From Lysobacteraceae bacterium (lineage in GTDB: Bacteria; Bdellovibrionota; UBA1018; JAGTJX01), in NCBI GenBank assembly GCA_023657465.1, contig JAGTJX010000002.1, positions 186,001 to 250,000 of the forward strand: a stretch of DNA of 64,000 nucleotides, written 5' to 3'. The position numbers and the translations under genes were made by a program. Shown in pieces: positions 35,551 through 62,628 of this stretch (the stretch's first letter is position 1; each line of letters starts with the position of its first letter). The notes beneath the pieces were generated by a model. That model ran no database searches. It was given only the letters and a program-made list of their open reading frames with translations, and was not told the DNA's origin.

Positions 35551-36429
35551 ATGAAGTTAAAGCTGATTTTGGCATCGTTCATTCTCATTTGTAGTAGCTC
35601 TCAATCGTGGGGAGCCACCCCTCGGGATCAACTGCTCACATTGACTCAGAAGTGGATCGGAACACCGTATGGCTTCGGGCCACTCGGTGAAGGTGAGGAC
35701 GGTCGCTTTGATCAAGATCCGCTTTATCGCTTCGATCAGTTCGACTGTGTGACGTTTGTTGAGACTGCGCTATCAGCAGCTCTCACAAAAAATCATGCTG
35801 ACTTCAAAAAACACATGAATCACATCCGTTACAAGGATGGAGAAGTAGACTACCTCACACGTAACCACTTCTCAGAAGTGGACTGGATTCCTAATAATCT
35901 TGAAAACGGAATGCTGTTTGAAGTGCTTTGGGTAGTGCAGAAGCGGACAAGGTACGCTCTCCCTATTGCTGTTGCGAAGATTGATAAAAAAAATTGGTAT
36001 GCAAAGAAATCAGTCGCCGAGATCCGTGTGATTGGTGCTAGTGAGCAAAAGAAACAAAAGTTGCTGAAGAAACTGAGAAGCTCTGGAAGAATTTTCGAAG
36101 TCGAAGTGAGTCAGCTCCCTTATGTTCCGTTTTCAGAGTTTCTCGATAACTCCAGTGAGTTCTCAGATCAGATCTTAAGCGGTCTTCCTCCAGTAATGGT
36201 TCTCAGCGTAGTGAGACCGGGTTGGGATCTAGTAAAGGTTGCGGGCACTGAACTCAATATCACTCATCAGGCGCTGTTGCTTCAGACTGAGAATGGTTGG
36301 GTCGTGCGCCACGCAACTTCTGATTCTAGGTATCAAGTCGTAGAAGATAGCCTGAAGGACTTCCTAGCACAAAGGCAGAAGACAGCTGGTGTTGCAGGCA
36401 TTCATCTCGTGGGCGTGAATGGTTTTTAA
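35551..36429 (+). CDS. DUF1460 family amidase-like protein (NlpC/P60 fold)
   Basis: Secreted protein of 292 residues; signal peptide ends near SWGA. The DUF1460 hallmarks are present: KWIGTPYGFGPLGEGEDG, the nucleophile Cys in QFDCVTFVETAL (about residue 70), and the His in NITHQALLLQTENG (about residue 235). DUF1460 proteins of Bacteroides are N-acetylmuramoyl-L-alanine amidase-like enzymes. A periplasmic role in cleaving murein is likely. Its 3' end overlaps the next gene by 11 bases, so both are probably made together. Confidence 0.85.
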   Translation: MKLKLILASFILICSSSQSWGATPRDQLLTLTQKWIGTPYGFGPLGEGEDGRFDQDPLYRFDQFDCVTFVETALSAALTKNHADFKKHMNHIRYKDGEVDYLTRNHFSEVDWIPNNLENGMLFEVLWVVQKRTRYALPIAVAKIDKKNWYAKKSVAEIRVIGASEQKKQKLLKKLRSSGRIFEVEVSQLPYVPFSEFLDNSSEFSDQILSGLPPVMVLSVVRPGWDLVKVAGTELNITHQALLLQTENGWVVRHATSDSRYQVVEDSLKDFLAQRQKTAGVAGIHLVGVNGF

Positions 36430-37075
36430 ATTAGTAATTTTTTTATTTCTCTTTTCTTTCAGTAGTTCTGCACAAGTAGGCTTCAATCATTACTCAAGCT
36501 TCTCTAAACTCAAGGCCAATCACAAAGAAGGCAAAGACTTCAAGATCATTTTCAAAGATAGACTCAAGAAAGACAAGACTCGCACTCTCGTGATGGCGAT
36601 GCACGGCTGCAAGGTAGAGCAAGGGACGACGGAGCTCTCTGAAGCCATCGCTGGAGAGAAGTACTCGTACTACTCATTCTGTGGACTAAAGGAAGAGAAG
36701 AAGTATCCTGAACTGCTCCTTGATCCTTTGTTGCATATTACTAGTGCTCATTTTGATGAACCCAAACTCATGGAGATGGTTAATAAATGTGATCGTTGTT
36801 TGAGTATTCATGGCTTCTCGAATGACGGAGTGGACTTTTGCATTGGTGGCAGGAACGACGTGAGGCGTGCAGAGTTACTCAAGAGCTTGTTGCGCGACTT
36901 CCCTGAGTTCAAGTCCTGTGAACTCTGTTGCAAGCCATATTTAGGAATATCCAAGAAGAACCCTGTGAATCTCTGTAAGACCCCTGGAGTTCAAATCGAA
37001 ATGAGCGCACGTGTACGCAAAAAAATATTAGAGGACTCTGAGTTCAAAAAGAAGCTCGCTCAGGCAATGAGATAA
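36419..37075 (+). CDS. Poly-gamma-glutamate hydrolase family protein
   Basis: Secreted protein of 218 residues; ATG 36419 lies inside the preceding gene. After a signal peptide (LVIFLFLFSFSSSAQ), the zinc-hydrolase motifs of the PghP family (Pfam Gamma_PGA_hydro) follow in order: MHGCKVEQGTTELSEAI, LHITSAHFDEP, SIHGF and IGGRND, then GVQIEMSARVR. Six to eight cysteines (CEACCKPY-like cluster ELCCKPYLG) suggest disulfides, unusual for the phage-type enzymes. Partnered with a DUF1460 amidase it may attack gamma-glutamyl bonds in murein or capsule. Confidence 0.85.
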   Translation: MVFKLVIFLFLFSFSSSAQVGFNHYSSFSKLKANHKEGKDFKIIFKDRLKKDKTRTLVMAMHGCKVEQGTTELSEAIAGEKYSYYSFCGLKEEKKYPELLLDPLLHITSAHFDEPKLMEMVNKCDRCLSIHGFSNDGVDFCIGGRNDVRRAELLKSLLRDFPEFKSCELCCKPYLGISKKNPVNLCKTPGVQIEMSARVRKKILEDSEFKKKLAQAMR

Positions 37076-40034: not shown

Positions 40035-41387
40035 CTACTTTGTTTTTTCCATGAAAAGTACGCCGTAGAGATCTTCGGAAAGTGGGATTTGGATTTCGGA
40101 CTGTGTACTATCGCTCGTAAATTGCACTTCAGGCGCAGAAACAACCGCAAGTGGTGAAGATTCACTGGTTTCTCCCATCACATAGACTGCAGCGACAGCA
40201 AGTGCGTCAATTACATTGGAGTGAGTCATGCGCATCGTTCTTCCGAAGAGATCCTTCTCGCCGATCTTAGATTGAGTCGCCTTCATTCCCCAGTGAGAGA
40301 GCGCGATTCCTGTGACTCCTCGTCTGAGTGCTGTCGTATGAGAGTCAGTGATGAGGATACCTAAGTTTTTCACACCATAGTGAGCACGAAGTGATTCGCC
40401 AATTTTTCGTGCGGATTCGTAAGGGTCTTTCGGAAATAAAATAAAATCGTTGTGCTCAGAATTGGACTCATCAATTCCAGCAGAGGCAATCAAGATTCCA
40501 TGTTTCACGGTGAGGTGAACTCCATGAATGGTCTCTCCTAAGTATTTGTCTGCGTGTTCTTTTACGAGATCAGTTTTGGATTTTACTGTCTCACGCTTCA
40601 CGATTGCATTCTCACAGAGCGAAACGATCTTGGAGGTGATCGCAAGTACAGTGTACTCTCGGATCATGTTTGTTGGCACCGAGCTCACGATAACATCGAA
40701 GAGAGAATTACCGTTGTGTACTGTACAAGTCTTAATCGGAGTAGCGATAATAGATCGTGAAGCAGTCGTGACATCCATCCATGCGATGAGTGACTTGCCT
40801 AGATAGAGGAGCGGTGTCTGGACTGCGCCTACGATGACTTTCACGCTAAAAGCAGTGAATGCATTGGCCCAGAAACTTGGCCAAGGGATCACGCCACCTA
40901 AGAAAATGAGGAGGAATACGAGTGTGTCGATTGCTTGCGAGAGGATGGACGCGAGATTGGCACGGAGGCCTAAGTACTTTCCTGACCACTTCGACTTAAG
41001 AGTGAGGAATGCTTCGATGTCAACAAGCTGCGAGATCATATACGCCGCAAGAGAAGCGAAGATCATGCGGGGAGCGAGTCCGAAAATCTGTCTCAGTATC
41101 TCGCCAGATCCTCGAGTAGGGGAATCGGGAAGTACAAGCGCTAGTCCGATGAAAGTGAGTGCCAGAAGTTGAATCCCCATTCCAATTTGAACCAGTCTGC
41201 GAGAAGAGTATTTGCCGTAGAGTTCAGCGGTGAGTTCGTTAGAAAGAAAAGTAAAAGGGAAAACGATAAGCCCAAGCGAGAAATCAAATCCCATGAAGTA
41301 AACGAACTTGGAACTTAAGAACGTCGACGTGAGGATCGCTCCGACGAAGATGGAACCTAAGAGTGTAGGACCAAGGGCCTGTTGCAT
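40035..41387 (-). CDS. Fusion: queuosine-precursor transporter-like membrane domain + CofE/FolC2-like gamma-glutamyl ligase
   Basis: Residues 1-205 are an integral membrane domain of the VUT/YhhQ type (FMGFDFSLGLIVFPFTFLSNELTAELYG, then several helices to LLYLGKSLIAW). Residues about 210-430 resemble F420-0:gamma-glutamyl ligase (CofE, COG1478): AITSKIVSLCENAIV, SAGIDESNSEHN, LFPKDPYESARKIGESLR, LGILITDSHTTALRRGVTGIA and AVYVMGETSESSPLAVV. In Chlamydia a COG1478 member (FolC2) replaces folate synthase FolC. No F420 pathway gene is in the window. The membrane part should import or move a pterin- or deazapurine-like ligand and the cytosolic part add glutamate; this coupling is inference. Confidence 0.8.
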   Translation of the reverse strand: MQQALGPTLLGSIFVGAILTSTFLSSKFVYFMGFDFSLGLIVFPFTFLSNELTAELYGKYSSRRLVQIGMGIQLLALTFIGLALVLPDSPTRGSGEILRQIFGLAPRMIFASLAAYMISQLVDIEAFLTLKSKWSGKYLGLRANLASILSQAIDTLVFLLIFLGGVIPWPSFWANAFTAFSVKVIVGAVQTPLLYLGKSLIAWMDVTTASRSIIATPIKTCTVHNGNSLFDVIVSSVPTNMIREYTVLAITSKIVSLCENAIVKRETVKSKTDLVKEHADKYLGETIHGVHLTVKHGILIASAGIDESNSEHNDFILFPKDPYESARKIGESLRAHYGVKNLGILITDSHTTALRRGVTGIALSHWGMKATQSKIGEKDLFGRTMRMTHSNVIDALAVAAVYVMGETSESSPLAVVSAPEVQFTSDSTQSEIQIPLSEDLYGVLFMEKTK

Positions 41388-41530: not shown

Positions 41531-42187
41531 TTACTTCTTCAACGGAGGTGGAGGTGGAGCACTGGCTGCAAACTCTGAATCCTTCATGCACTCTTCCACA
41601 TGTTTAGCTAACTCAGGATATTCCGCTGCCCAGTCCCACTTCTTGAATCTAATGCTTGCGTATTGAGCAGCAACTGCGATGTCCCAGCTTGCTTGATTGA
41701 GCGAGCGGGAAAATCCTTGAGAGGGATTTTCGTTTGAAGCTCCACTCCAAATTGCAATCATCTCAGGATCAGTACACAGCAGTTGCATGGTGTCTCTCAC
41801 TGCTGCTTCACAGTCCTTCATGAATGCTTCTGAAGGTGAAGGTTGAATCGTTTCTAAGAAGTGACTCACGATGAAGGTCATTACGCCCGTCGCGTAGACC
41901 GAAGCTTGTCTCACGAGTTCTCTGTGCTCTTGGTCTTCAGGCCAAATCTTGCCTCCTGAGCGATCATTCAAAACTTCTAGTAGGTTGTTCGAATCAGTGA
42001 GGAGCACTCCTTCGGGAGTCCTCAGTGCAGGTACTAATCCCAGAGGAGTGAGCCTCTCGAACTCAGGCGACGGTTCAAGCACATTCTCTTCTATGAGATT
42101 GAATGGGAATTCTAATCTCGAAAGCGCAAGTCTGATTCGTCTAGCAAATGGAGATCTGAGTGAGAAGGTGAGTTCGTAGTGTTTCAT
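41531..42187 (-). CDS. Glutathione S-transferase family protein
   Basis: Cytosolic protein of 218 residues with an N-terminal thioredoxin-fold domain (YELTFSLRSPFARRIRLAL, then LGLVPALRTPEGVLLTDSNN, the cis-Pro and Ser-Asn glutathione site) and an all-helical C-terminal domain. The Ser in LRSPFARR replaces the Cys or Tyr of other classes. Substrate unknown. The start overlaps the epmA stop by four bases. The C-terminus PPPPPLKK is a short proline tail. Confidence 0.88.
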   Translation of the reverse strand: MKHYELTFSLRSPFARRIRLALSRLEFPFNLIEENVLEPSPEFERLTPLGLVPALRTPEGVLLTDSNNLLEVLNDRSGGKIWPEDQEHRELVRQASVYATGVMTFIVSHFLETIQPSPSEAFMKDCEAAVRDTMQLLCTDPEMIAIWSGASNENPSQGFSRSLNQASWDIAVAAQYASIRFKKWDWAAEYPELAKHVEECMKDSEFAASAPPPPPLKK

Positions 42188-43227
42188 ACAGATAAATAAA
42201 AGGTGTAATCAATATCCGTTTCGTTTGCAAACAGGAGCGTGAGTCTATCGACACCAATAGCGATTCCTGAGCAGGGAGGTAGTCCCTCATAGAGTGCTCG
42301 GATGAAGTCTTCGTCGATGGGGCTTGGCGGAAATGCATCTCCGTAGATCTCAGATCTCAGTTGCATGTCCTTCTCGAATCGCTCTCTCTGCTCAAACGAA
42401 TCAGTGAGTTCTTCAAATCCATTTCCGAGTTCAATTCCACCGATATAAAATTCTGCGCGCTTAGACCATTCCCAGCCATCGACATCTTTTGTTTTCACAG
42501 CTAGAGCGGATTGAGAAGCGGGATATCCATAGACGAAGCACGCGCGGTCTTGCGGAAGCTTGGGCTCAACAAGTTCTAACCAAATTCTAAAATACAAATC
42601 ATCCCAAGTGTCGTGAGGGTTTACGAATAGTCCTAGACGCTTGCACTCATTGGCAAGAGCGTGTGGAGTATTTGATACGTGAAGATCCACTCCTACGTGC
42701 TCGAGGAAAAGATCGCGAATCTTGAAACGTGGCCAACCTGCTGAGAGATCGATGAGGGTGTTCTGATAATGAATAGAATAAGTCCCATTGAGTCTCAGAG
42801 CGATGTGCATGACCATGGATTCAGTGATTTCCATGAGCCGAGAGAGATCTGCCTCCGTCTCGTAGAATTCTAATAGAGTGAACTCGCAGAGATGTGTCTT
42901 GGACTTCGGTTCGTCACGGAATGCGGGAGTGATTTGGAAAATTTTCTCTAATCCACCGGCAAGTAACTTCTTCATCGCAAACTCGGGAGAGGTCGGAAGG
43001 AAAATTCTCTCGTGACCTGTGAGTGAATGGCCTGAATCTATTCTAGGGAAAAGTTCGAGCGGTCTGATGTGCGTTTCCATTCCGGGACTGCGCACAATGA
43101 GAGGAGTTCTGACCTCTTCATAGTTACGATCGACAAAAAAATGTCTGATCTCGGATTCAACTTTTCGTCTTGTAGCAACACCCTTTTTTCGTCTAGGATC
43201 TTGTATAAGACTTTGAAATGTATTCAT
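42184..43227 (-). CDS. epmA: Elongation factor P beta-lysine ligase
   Basis: Homologue of the class II lysyl-tRNA synthetase core that attaches (R)-beta-lysine to EF-P. It shows class II motif 1 (EVRTPLIVRSPGME), motif 2 (FRDEPKSKTHLCEFTLLEFY) and motif 3 (GIAIGVDRLTLLFA), but no anticodon-binding domain, and at 347 residues has the EpmA length. EF-P and EpmB are not in the window. Coupled to the GST gene by a four-base overlap. Confidence 0.93.
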   Translation of the reverse strand: MNTFQSLIQDPRRKKGVATRRKVESEIRHFFVDRNYEEVRTPLIVRSPGMETHIRPLELFPRIDSGHSLTGHERIFLPTSPEFAMKKLLAGGLEKIFQITPAFRDEPKSKTHLCEFTLLEFYETEADLSRLMEITESMVMHIALRLNGTYSIHYQNTLIDLSAGWPRFKIRDLFLEHVGVDLHVSNTPHALANECKRLGLFVNPHDTWDDLYFRIWLELVEPKLPQDRACFVYGYPASQSALAVKTKDVDGWEWSKRAEFYIGGIELGNGFEELTDSFEQRERFEKDMQLRSEIYGDAFPPSPIDEDFIRALYEGLPPCSGIAIGVDRLTLLFANETDIDYTFYLSV

Positions 43228-61365: not shown

Positions 61366-62628
61366 TTAGTGCTTATAGAGCGGAAACGTTCTGCAGAGCT
61401 CTTTTACGCTGCCACGAACCTTCTTAAGAGTCGCCTCATCGCCTTTAGATCCGATGACTTCGCCAATCCACTTACCGATTTGTTTCATCTCGGGTTCCTT
61501 CATCCCACGAGTGGTGAGAGCAGGGGTGCCGATACGGATGCCGCTCGTAACAAACGGACTCCTAGTTTCGTTAGGGACTGTGTTCTTATTCACTGTGATG
61601 CCTGCGATATCAAGCCATGCTTCTGCGTCCTTACCAGTGACGGAGCCATCTTTGAACGCCCTAAGATCACAGAGCATGAGGTGGTTATCTGTACCGTTAG
61701 ATGCGAGCTTGAATCCTTGGCTCATCATCTCTGATGCCATGGCCTTAGCATTTTTAATCACTTGGCTTTGGTATTCTTTGAATCCAGGAGCAAGCGCCTC
61801 ACCGAATGCTACGGCCTTAGCAGCAATCACATGCATGAGAGGGCCCCCTTGGATGCCAGGGAAAATAAGCGAGTTTGCTGCTTTGATTCTGTCGGCGTTA
61901 TTAGACAGAATGATTCCACCACGAGGACCTCGAAGAGTCTTGTGAGTCGTCGATGTAGTGTAAGTCGCATGAGGAATCGGAGAAGGGTGGAGTCCTGCAG
62001 CGACAAGTCCCGCAATGTGGGCCATATCGACAATGAGGTCTGCGCCTACTTCGCGCGCAATCTCTCCGAAAATTTTGAAATCAATGATGCGTGGGTACGC
62101 ACTTGCTCCAGCGACGATGACTTTGGGTTTTTCTCGTTTAGCTAGATCACGGATCTGATCGTAGTCGAGTAAGTGTGTTTCAGGATGGATGCCGTAAGAG
62201 ATGATTTTGAAGAGCTTCCCACTGAAGTTCACCGGTGATCCGTGAGTGAGGTGGCCACCTTGAGAGAGATCCATGCCGAGTAATTTGTCTCCAGCGTTCA
62301 TCAGCGCCATGTAGGCTGCCATGTTGGCTTGAGATCCTGAGTGAGGCTGAACGTTTGCGCCTTCTGCTCCGAAGATTTTCTTCACACGTTCAATCGCAAG
62401 TGCTTCGACTTGATCTACGAATTCGCAGCCGCCGTAGTAGCGCTTCGAAGGGTAACCTTCTGCGTACTTGTTCGTGAGTACAGAGCCTTGAGCTTCGAGT
62501 ACTGCAGGTGAGACGTAGTTTTCTGAAGCGATGAGCTCTAAGCCTTCTTCTTCACGGACAGCTTCTCTACCGATTGCTGCAAAAATTTCTGGATCAGTTT
62601 GTTTGAGGTTCGTCGTTGGGATGCTCAT
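61366..62628 (-). CDS. glyA: Serine hydroxymethyltransferase
   Basis: PLP enzyme that converts serine and tetrahydrofolate to glycine and methylene-THF. The PLP lysine is in [15 protein letters not shown], and [22 protein letters not shown] and [18 protein letters not shown] are the N-terminal motifs. Length 420 residues is normal. One base separates it from rpiB upstream. It is convergent with the Cys-rich secreted gene. Confidence 0.98.

Follow-up and report, generated by a model that had tools for sequence, protein, structure and literature searches.

Members of the VUT family of membrane transporters carry the deazaguanines preQ0/preQ1 or queuine (PMC5372724, PMC11130926), and in E. coli YhhQ the C-terminus has been located by experiment on the cytoplasmic side (PMC5372724). 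The ligase family COG1478 includes Chlamydia CT611, which complements an E. coli folC mutant, while the folate carriers of many folate-requiring bacteria are unknown (PMC1971073). In CofE, the F420 gamma-glutamyl ligase, the segment G153-C155 packs on the F420 chromophore (PMC10861534).

The gene described here joins a VUT domain and a COG1478-like ligase domain in one protein. It was found in a stretch of 64,000 nucleotides, analysed as a whole and called the window below, from a genome of 2.83 Mb that is 96% complete and that very likely belongs to the Bdellovibrionota, as do its named relatives. The gene is interpreted as a folate-salvage cassette in which import is coupled to a glutamylation trap, a reading given a probability of about 0.6. 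An earlier reading of the sequence only had named no described system of this kind, and none was found in the searched publications on VUT/COG1738 with folate ligases or on Bdellovibrio folate transport.

Domain structure of the fused gene

The open reading frame check gave a single frame of 450 codons that fills exactly the interval listed for the fused gene in Table 1, on the minus strand; the plus strand of the same interval is crowded with stops. Separate Pfam matches were obtained for the two parts, Vut_1 with E 2.8e-37 (128.9 bits, cut-off 27.2) and F420_ligase with E 9.4e-38 (130.3 bits, gathering cut-off 25). The sequence-only reading had claimed one frame with a VUT/YhhQ-like and a COG1478-like ligase domain and had advised separate HMM searches of the two halves, a lack of any F420 ligase/FolC2 match in the second being counter-evidence; both the frame and the two domains are borne out. 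The ligase part contains the motifs AGIDESN and LITDSH, which that reading had also named, together with GETSESSPLAVV, and it matches the CofE entries 2g9i, 2phn and 7uld with E of about 4.5e-19 (phmmer).

Table 1. Features of the locus, with positions counted in the window
Feature	Position	Strand	Evidence
Fused gene, VUT-family transporter domain then FolC2-like gamma-glutamyl ligase, 450 aa	40035..41387	-	ORF, Pfam, NCBIfam, G036 fusion, AlphaFold model
Vut_1 (PF02592) domain, residues 38-196	40800..41276	-	Pfam, hydropathy, AlphaFold of domain alone
F420_ligase (PF01996) domain, residues 218-416, FolC2-like	40140..40736	-	Pfam, TIGR04132 vs CofE scores, Foldseek to CofE
Ligase active-site stretch, D306 of AGIDESN to D348 of ITDSHTTALRRGVTG	40344..40472	-	Alignment with A. 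fulgidus CofE
Poly-gamma-glutamate hydrolase (PF05908), apparent signal peptide, candidate partner	36419..37075	+	E 4.3e-41
glyA, serine hydroxymethyltransferase, not part of the cassette	61366..62628	-	58% identical to E. coli GlyA

When the complete chain is modelled by AlphaFold, a helical membrane part is followed directly by a CofE fold, and this model is matched by Foldseek to the CofE structure 7uld with E 3.7e-15 and a TM of 0.76 by target. The Vut_1 domain modelled alone has a pLDDT of 86.9. Both hydropathy and the domain model predict six membrane helices in the VUT domain, and a positive-inside charge count predicts that its C-terminus, and hence the ligase, is on the cytoplasmic side.

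Distribution of the fusion and of the unfused pair

A full-length match to the fusion was found in only two of the 58 genomes of the class, the source genome and G036. The G036 protein comes from another family and is 49% identical, a single one-residue gap interrupting the alignment of residues 3-450. Since this independent genome carries an unbroken fusion, misassembly does not explain the junction. No third fusion was found among the 369 genomes of the phylum, and no phage or plasmid record covers 80% of the query.

Three genomes (G057, G318 and G319) have the VUT gene directly upstream of the ligase gene. In G057 these two genes share 14 bases, likewise in G319, and the two frames overlap in G318 too; the separate genes are the unfused state of the same transporter-ligase pair. 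The sequence-only reading had advised a search for the fusion in relatives and had regarded two separate genes there as evidence against it. Such separate genes do occur in these three relatives, and the fusion is intact in two genomes.

The fused and paired VUTs of the Bdellovibrionota form one clade in the tree (96/90), in which the two fused VUTs are sisters (99/92). The ligase tree places G036 among the stand-alone ligases of its own genus, and the transporter part has therefore probably been lost or separated within that genus; G037 and G038, which belong to it, have the ligase alone. Most ligases of the class have no VUT adjoining, and this, like the lone ligases of G037 and G038, counts against the proposed cassette. 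The fusion is real and old.

Phylogeny and gene context of the transporter

The VUT domain of the fusion passes the cut-off of TIGR00697, the queuosine precursor transporter model, with 136.9 against 50.95 bits. All scanned VUTs, ligase-linked ones included, are above this cut-off, and the models thus do not separate the linked from the ordinary clade. Nearly every genome of the class has a TGT, and a chance fusion of gene pairs is possible. These points would suit an explanation in which an ordinary importer of queuosine precursors became attached to a folate ligase by accident, two unrelated housekeeping functions having been united when an operon lost a stop codon. This explanation is judged unlikely, since the fused and paired Bdellovibrionota VUTs form a clade that lies outside that of the ordinary VUTs, and since the source genome and G036 each keep a second, ordinary VUT in that other clade (100/100). 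No TGT match was found among the screened neighbours of the Bdellovibrionota VUT-ligase pairs.

The pairing also recurs in two phyla, with folate rather than queuosine genes around it. The survey outside the phylum drew on a collection of 84,980 species and covered its best 80 ligase loci; among these are four Patescibacteria in which the ligase has a VUT just upstream. In two Nomurabacteria (L165 and L182) the VUT overlaps the ligase, and DHFR and ThyA genes lie within 4 kb; in Daviesbacteria and Harrisonbacteria (L168 and L173) only a RibD_C/DHFR-like gene separates the two. No TGT was found in the L168 and L173 genomes, the completeness of which is not established, and this too argues against an ordinary importer. 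The ligase-linked transporter is probably not the queuosine one, and the context points strongly to folate as its cargo.

A BT1-type folate transporter was searched for in the class, where the matches were weak (about 18-31 bits) and none was convincing; none was found in the source genome. No preQ1, THF or other Rfam family was present at the gathering threshold in ten VUT-bearing loci, the match upstream of the fusion being at chance level.

Elsewhere a VUT is found next to TGT or Que genes, as in Holosporales (L133) and phages. On a Methylobacterium nodulans plasmid (L246:1618-3729) folE, an SDR reductase gene and a VUT gene stand in a row, another example of a pterin-linked VUT. A residue signature for the folate-linked VUTs, Asn144 together with Leu/Val104, split 9 linked from 19 unlinked sequences and was rejected when it failed on independent ones: Asn144 also occurs in a phage VUT that neighbours a TGT-like gene, and both residues occur in two VUTs from Rickettsiales plasmids. 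The source genome also encodes a second TGT of 669 aa (L240:655-2664, minus strand), fused to an MnmC-like methyltransferase (PF05430). In many genomes of the class a second TGT occurs, its open frame about 660-760 aa in length, so that the TGT-MnmC-like fusion may be conserved.

Folate metabolism in the source genome and its class

FolC, FolP, DHFR_1 and ThyX gave no match over cut-off in the source genome. The presence of glyA is evidence that the organism uses folate, and given the lack of DHFR_1 and ThyX this use rests here on GlyA. In the class as a whole, DHFR was found in 48 of the 58 genomes and FolP in 11; because DHFR is widespread and FolP scarce, most members of the class seem to scavenge their folate. 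A look at the genome for folC, F420 and queuosine genes had been suggested from the sequence only, and it showed no folC or cofD match and an ordinary VUT that has been kept.

The lack of FolP bears on an explanation in which the transporter imports a pterin or the pABA-glutamate fragment (a folate breakdown product) instead of whole folate, the ligase acting later in the same salvage route. The bases moved by VUT members are small and of the fused-ring type, which would be nearer in size to pterins than to folates, and the VUT domain model resembles ECF S-components weakly, mostly those of the pantothenate, thiamine and riboflavin types. Without FolP, however, no known enzymes of this genome could turn a pterin alone into folate, and we consider this explanation quite unlikely.

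Phylogeny and gene context of the ligase

The best NCBIfam model for the ligase is TIGR04132, 'putative folate metabolism gamma-glutamate ligase', with 237.9 bits. As this score is below the curated cut-off of 350 bits, the ligase is filed as FolC2-like and not as a TIGR04132 equivalog. The fol-operon members of the phylum that were tested are also under this cut-off (220.8 bits in G016 and 227.8 bits in L121); the fol-operon ligase of Wolbachia passes it with 371 bits. Scores with the CofE models are much lower than with the folate model and stay below the CofE cut-offs, TIGR01916 giving 129.9 bits against 180.65. In the alignment with A. fulgidus CofE, residues D306 and D348 correspond to D109 and D150. 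Where CofE contacts F420 through Gly-Arg-Cys, the fusion has Thr-Thr-Ala, in line with a folate-ligase-like Thr-Thr-(Pro/Ala), and the motif that holds these residues resembles those of 19 screened fol-operon ligases. CofD was absent from all 58 class genomes in a search that detected its positive controls.

All ligases of the Bdellovibrionota, whether fused, paired, in fol operons or alone, form one clade (99/97). At least nine distinct contigs of Bdellovibrionota have a relative of the ligase directly 3' of folB-folKP, one of them from G016 (L041), a genome of this class; the other contigs are L123, L125, L127, L129, L134, L200, L202 and L204, three of which are repeated by L210, L212 and L220. 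Some of these operons have the order folB-folKP(-folA), and relatives of the ligase are also part of fol operons in Holosporales, Wolbachia and Verrucomicrobiota. The clustering with fol genes is seen for the relatives, and the fused copy's own locus is not clustered with folate genes. FolC is over cut-off in 11 genomes of the class and in none of the 15 that carry the ligase, a mutual exclusion that is borderline in the 58 genomes (Fisher p 0.05). The only two class genomes with FolP but without FolC, G016 and G050, both carry the ligase. Judged by its model scores, by its relatives in fol operons and by the absence of CofD from the class and of FolC from the ligase carriers, the ligase is FolC2-like rather than CofE-like.

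Import of a deazaguanine (preQ0, preQ1 or queuine) with trapping by glutamylation appears very improbable. The transport of such bases by VUT members would favour it, and in Falkowbacteria (L181:4764-6654) a TGT gene overlaps a COG1478 ligase gene, which is mild counter-evidence to a purely folate context; the gene context of the ligase family is nevertheless that of folate. COG1478 enzymes activate a carboxylate, and preQ0/preQ1 offer none for such chemistry. Glutamylation of F420-0 or another deazaflavin, with the transporter importing the deazaflavin or a precursor, would agree with a fold and family that are those of CofE, and is scarcely credible given the missing CofD, the low scores of the CofE models and the exchange of the chromophore-binding Gly-Arg-Cys for a folate-ligase-like motif.

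The substrates suggested in the sequence-only reading thus stand in part. It had named F420-0 and, for Chlamydia FolC2, dihydropteroate as the compounds to which COG1478 enzymes add glutamate; here the FolC2 side is supported and F420 is excluded in the class as far as CofD shows. Its cargo was a pterin- or deazaguanine-like compound; gene neighbourhoods favour the pterin/folate branch, and the deazaguanine branch is not supported in view of the separate ordinary VUT, of the lack of TGT beside the Bdellovibrionota pairs and in two Patescibacteria genomes with the pair, and of the missing carboxylate.

Neighbouring genes

The hydrolase gene of Table 1 is situated 3 kb from the fusion on the opposite strand, and the solved relatives of its product are YndL and PghP-type hydrolases. 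The VUT-ligase operon of G057 contains a homologue with 31% identity as its third, overlapping gene, and another is found about 1 kb from the ligase of Wolfebacteria. Among the class genomes the hydrolase is present in 7 of the 15 ligase carriers and in 5 of the 43 others (Fisher p 0.008, relatedness ignored). It could plausibly trim the polyglutamate tails of folates outside the cell before import.

An AmiA-like (PF07313) amidase-like gene at 35551-36429 (plus strand) of the window overlaps the start of the hydrolase gene, and this overlap suggests that the two form one operon. Immediately upstream of the fusion and on the same strand are a GST-fold gene (41531-42187, minus strand) and, overlapping it, a gene for an EpmA-like EF-P lysine aminoacylase (42184-43227, minus strand) that is just over the cut-off of TIGR00462.

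Discussion

Both domains of the fusion have a genomic link to folate genes. In the proposed folate-salvage cassette the six-helix VUT domain would carry a folate-type compound, most likely mono-glutamyl folate or pteroate, across the inner membrane, and the cytoplasmic ligase domain would add L-glutamate to the tail or carboxylate of this cargo. The chemistry would be that of CofE, with a nucleotide triphosphate and an acyl-phosphate. Glutamylation would make the compound usable by folate enzymes and stop its escape from the cell, and the fusion would position the ligase at the exit of the transporter. The substrate, the coupling of import to ligation and the direction of transport are inferred, as is the hydrolase's role. 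Import followed by glutamylation trapping, first suggested from the sequence, is the best reading in view of the ligase relatives in fol operons, the pairs linked to DHFR and ThyA and the carriers without FolC, the cargo being read from context.

A broader proposal is put forward tentatively and is, in its full extent, rather doubtful. The VUT subfamily might be an unrecognised folate transporter of predatory Bdellovibrionota and of Patescibacteria, with a part in a scavenging of three steps: a secreted gamma-glutamyl hydrolase would trim folate polyglutamates that prey or hosts release, the VUT would import the mono-glutamate, and the fused ligase would rebuild the tail on entry.

When a transporter is naturally fused to the enzyme that acts on its cargo, this is among the strongest genomic clues to a substrate, and the present clue leads away from the automatic label 'queuosine precursor transporter'. 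Should the folate reading hold, a set of VUT genes carries a wrong annotation, and predatory and ultra-small bacteria gain a folate transporter that had been missing. How predatory and episymbiotic bacteria obtain B9 could then be tested directly with E. coli mutants.

Chlamydia FolC2 (CT611, COG1478) belongs to the same ligase family, is a FolC replacement and resembles the present ligase in the fol-gene neighbourhood of its relatives. It differs in standing alone in a de novo folate operon; the present ligase is fused to a transporter, and its genome has neither FolP nor FolC. CofE and FbiB, F420 gamma-glutamyl ligases, have the same fold and Pfam family, but they are without a transporter, and the class studied here lacks CofD and the fusion has not kept the F420-binding segment. 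The folate ECF S-component FolT is likewise a small membrane protein, and the VUT model is weakly like ECF S-components, but there is no significant match to FolT in sequence or structure. On the transporter side, QPTR/YhhQ (COG1738, PF02592) is of the same family, with six helices and a cytoplasmic C-terminus (PMC5372724); the VUT of the fusion falls in another clade, is linked to folate genes and has a folate compound as its predicted substrate. The fusions of QPTR with TGT (PMC11130926) likewise join a VUT transporter to an enzyme that uses its cargo, with the difference that the enzyme here is a folate-type glutamate ligase and not TGT. The locus brings known parts together in a new pairing, and the cargo predicted from it is new for an established transporter family.
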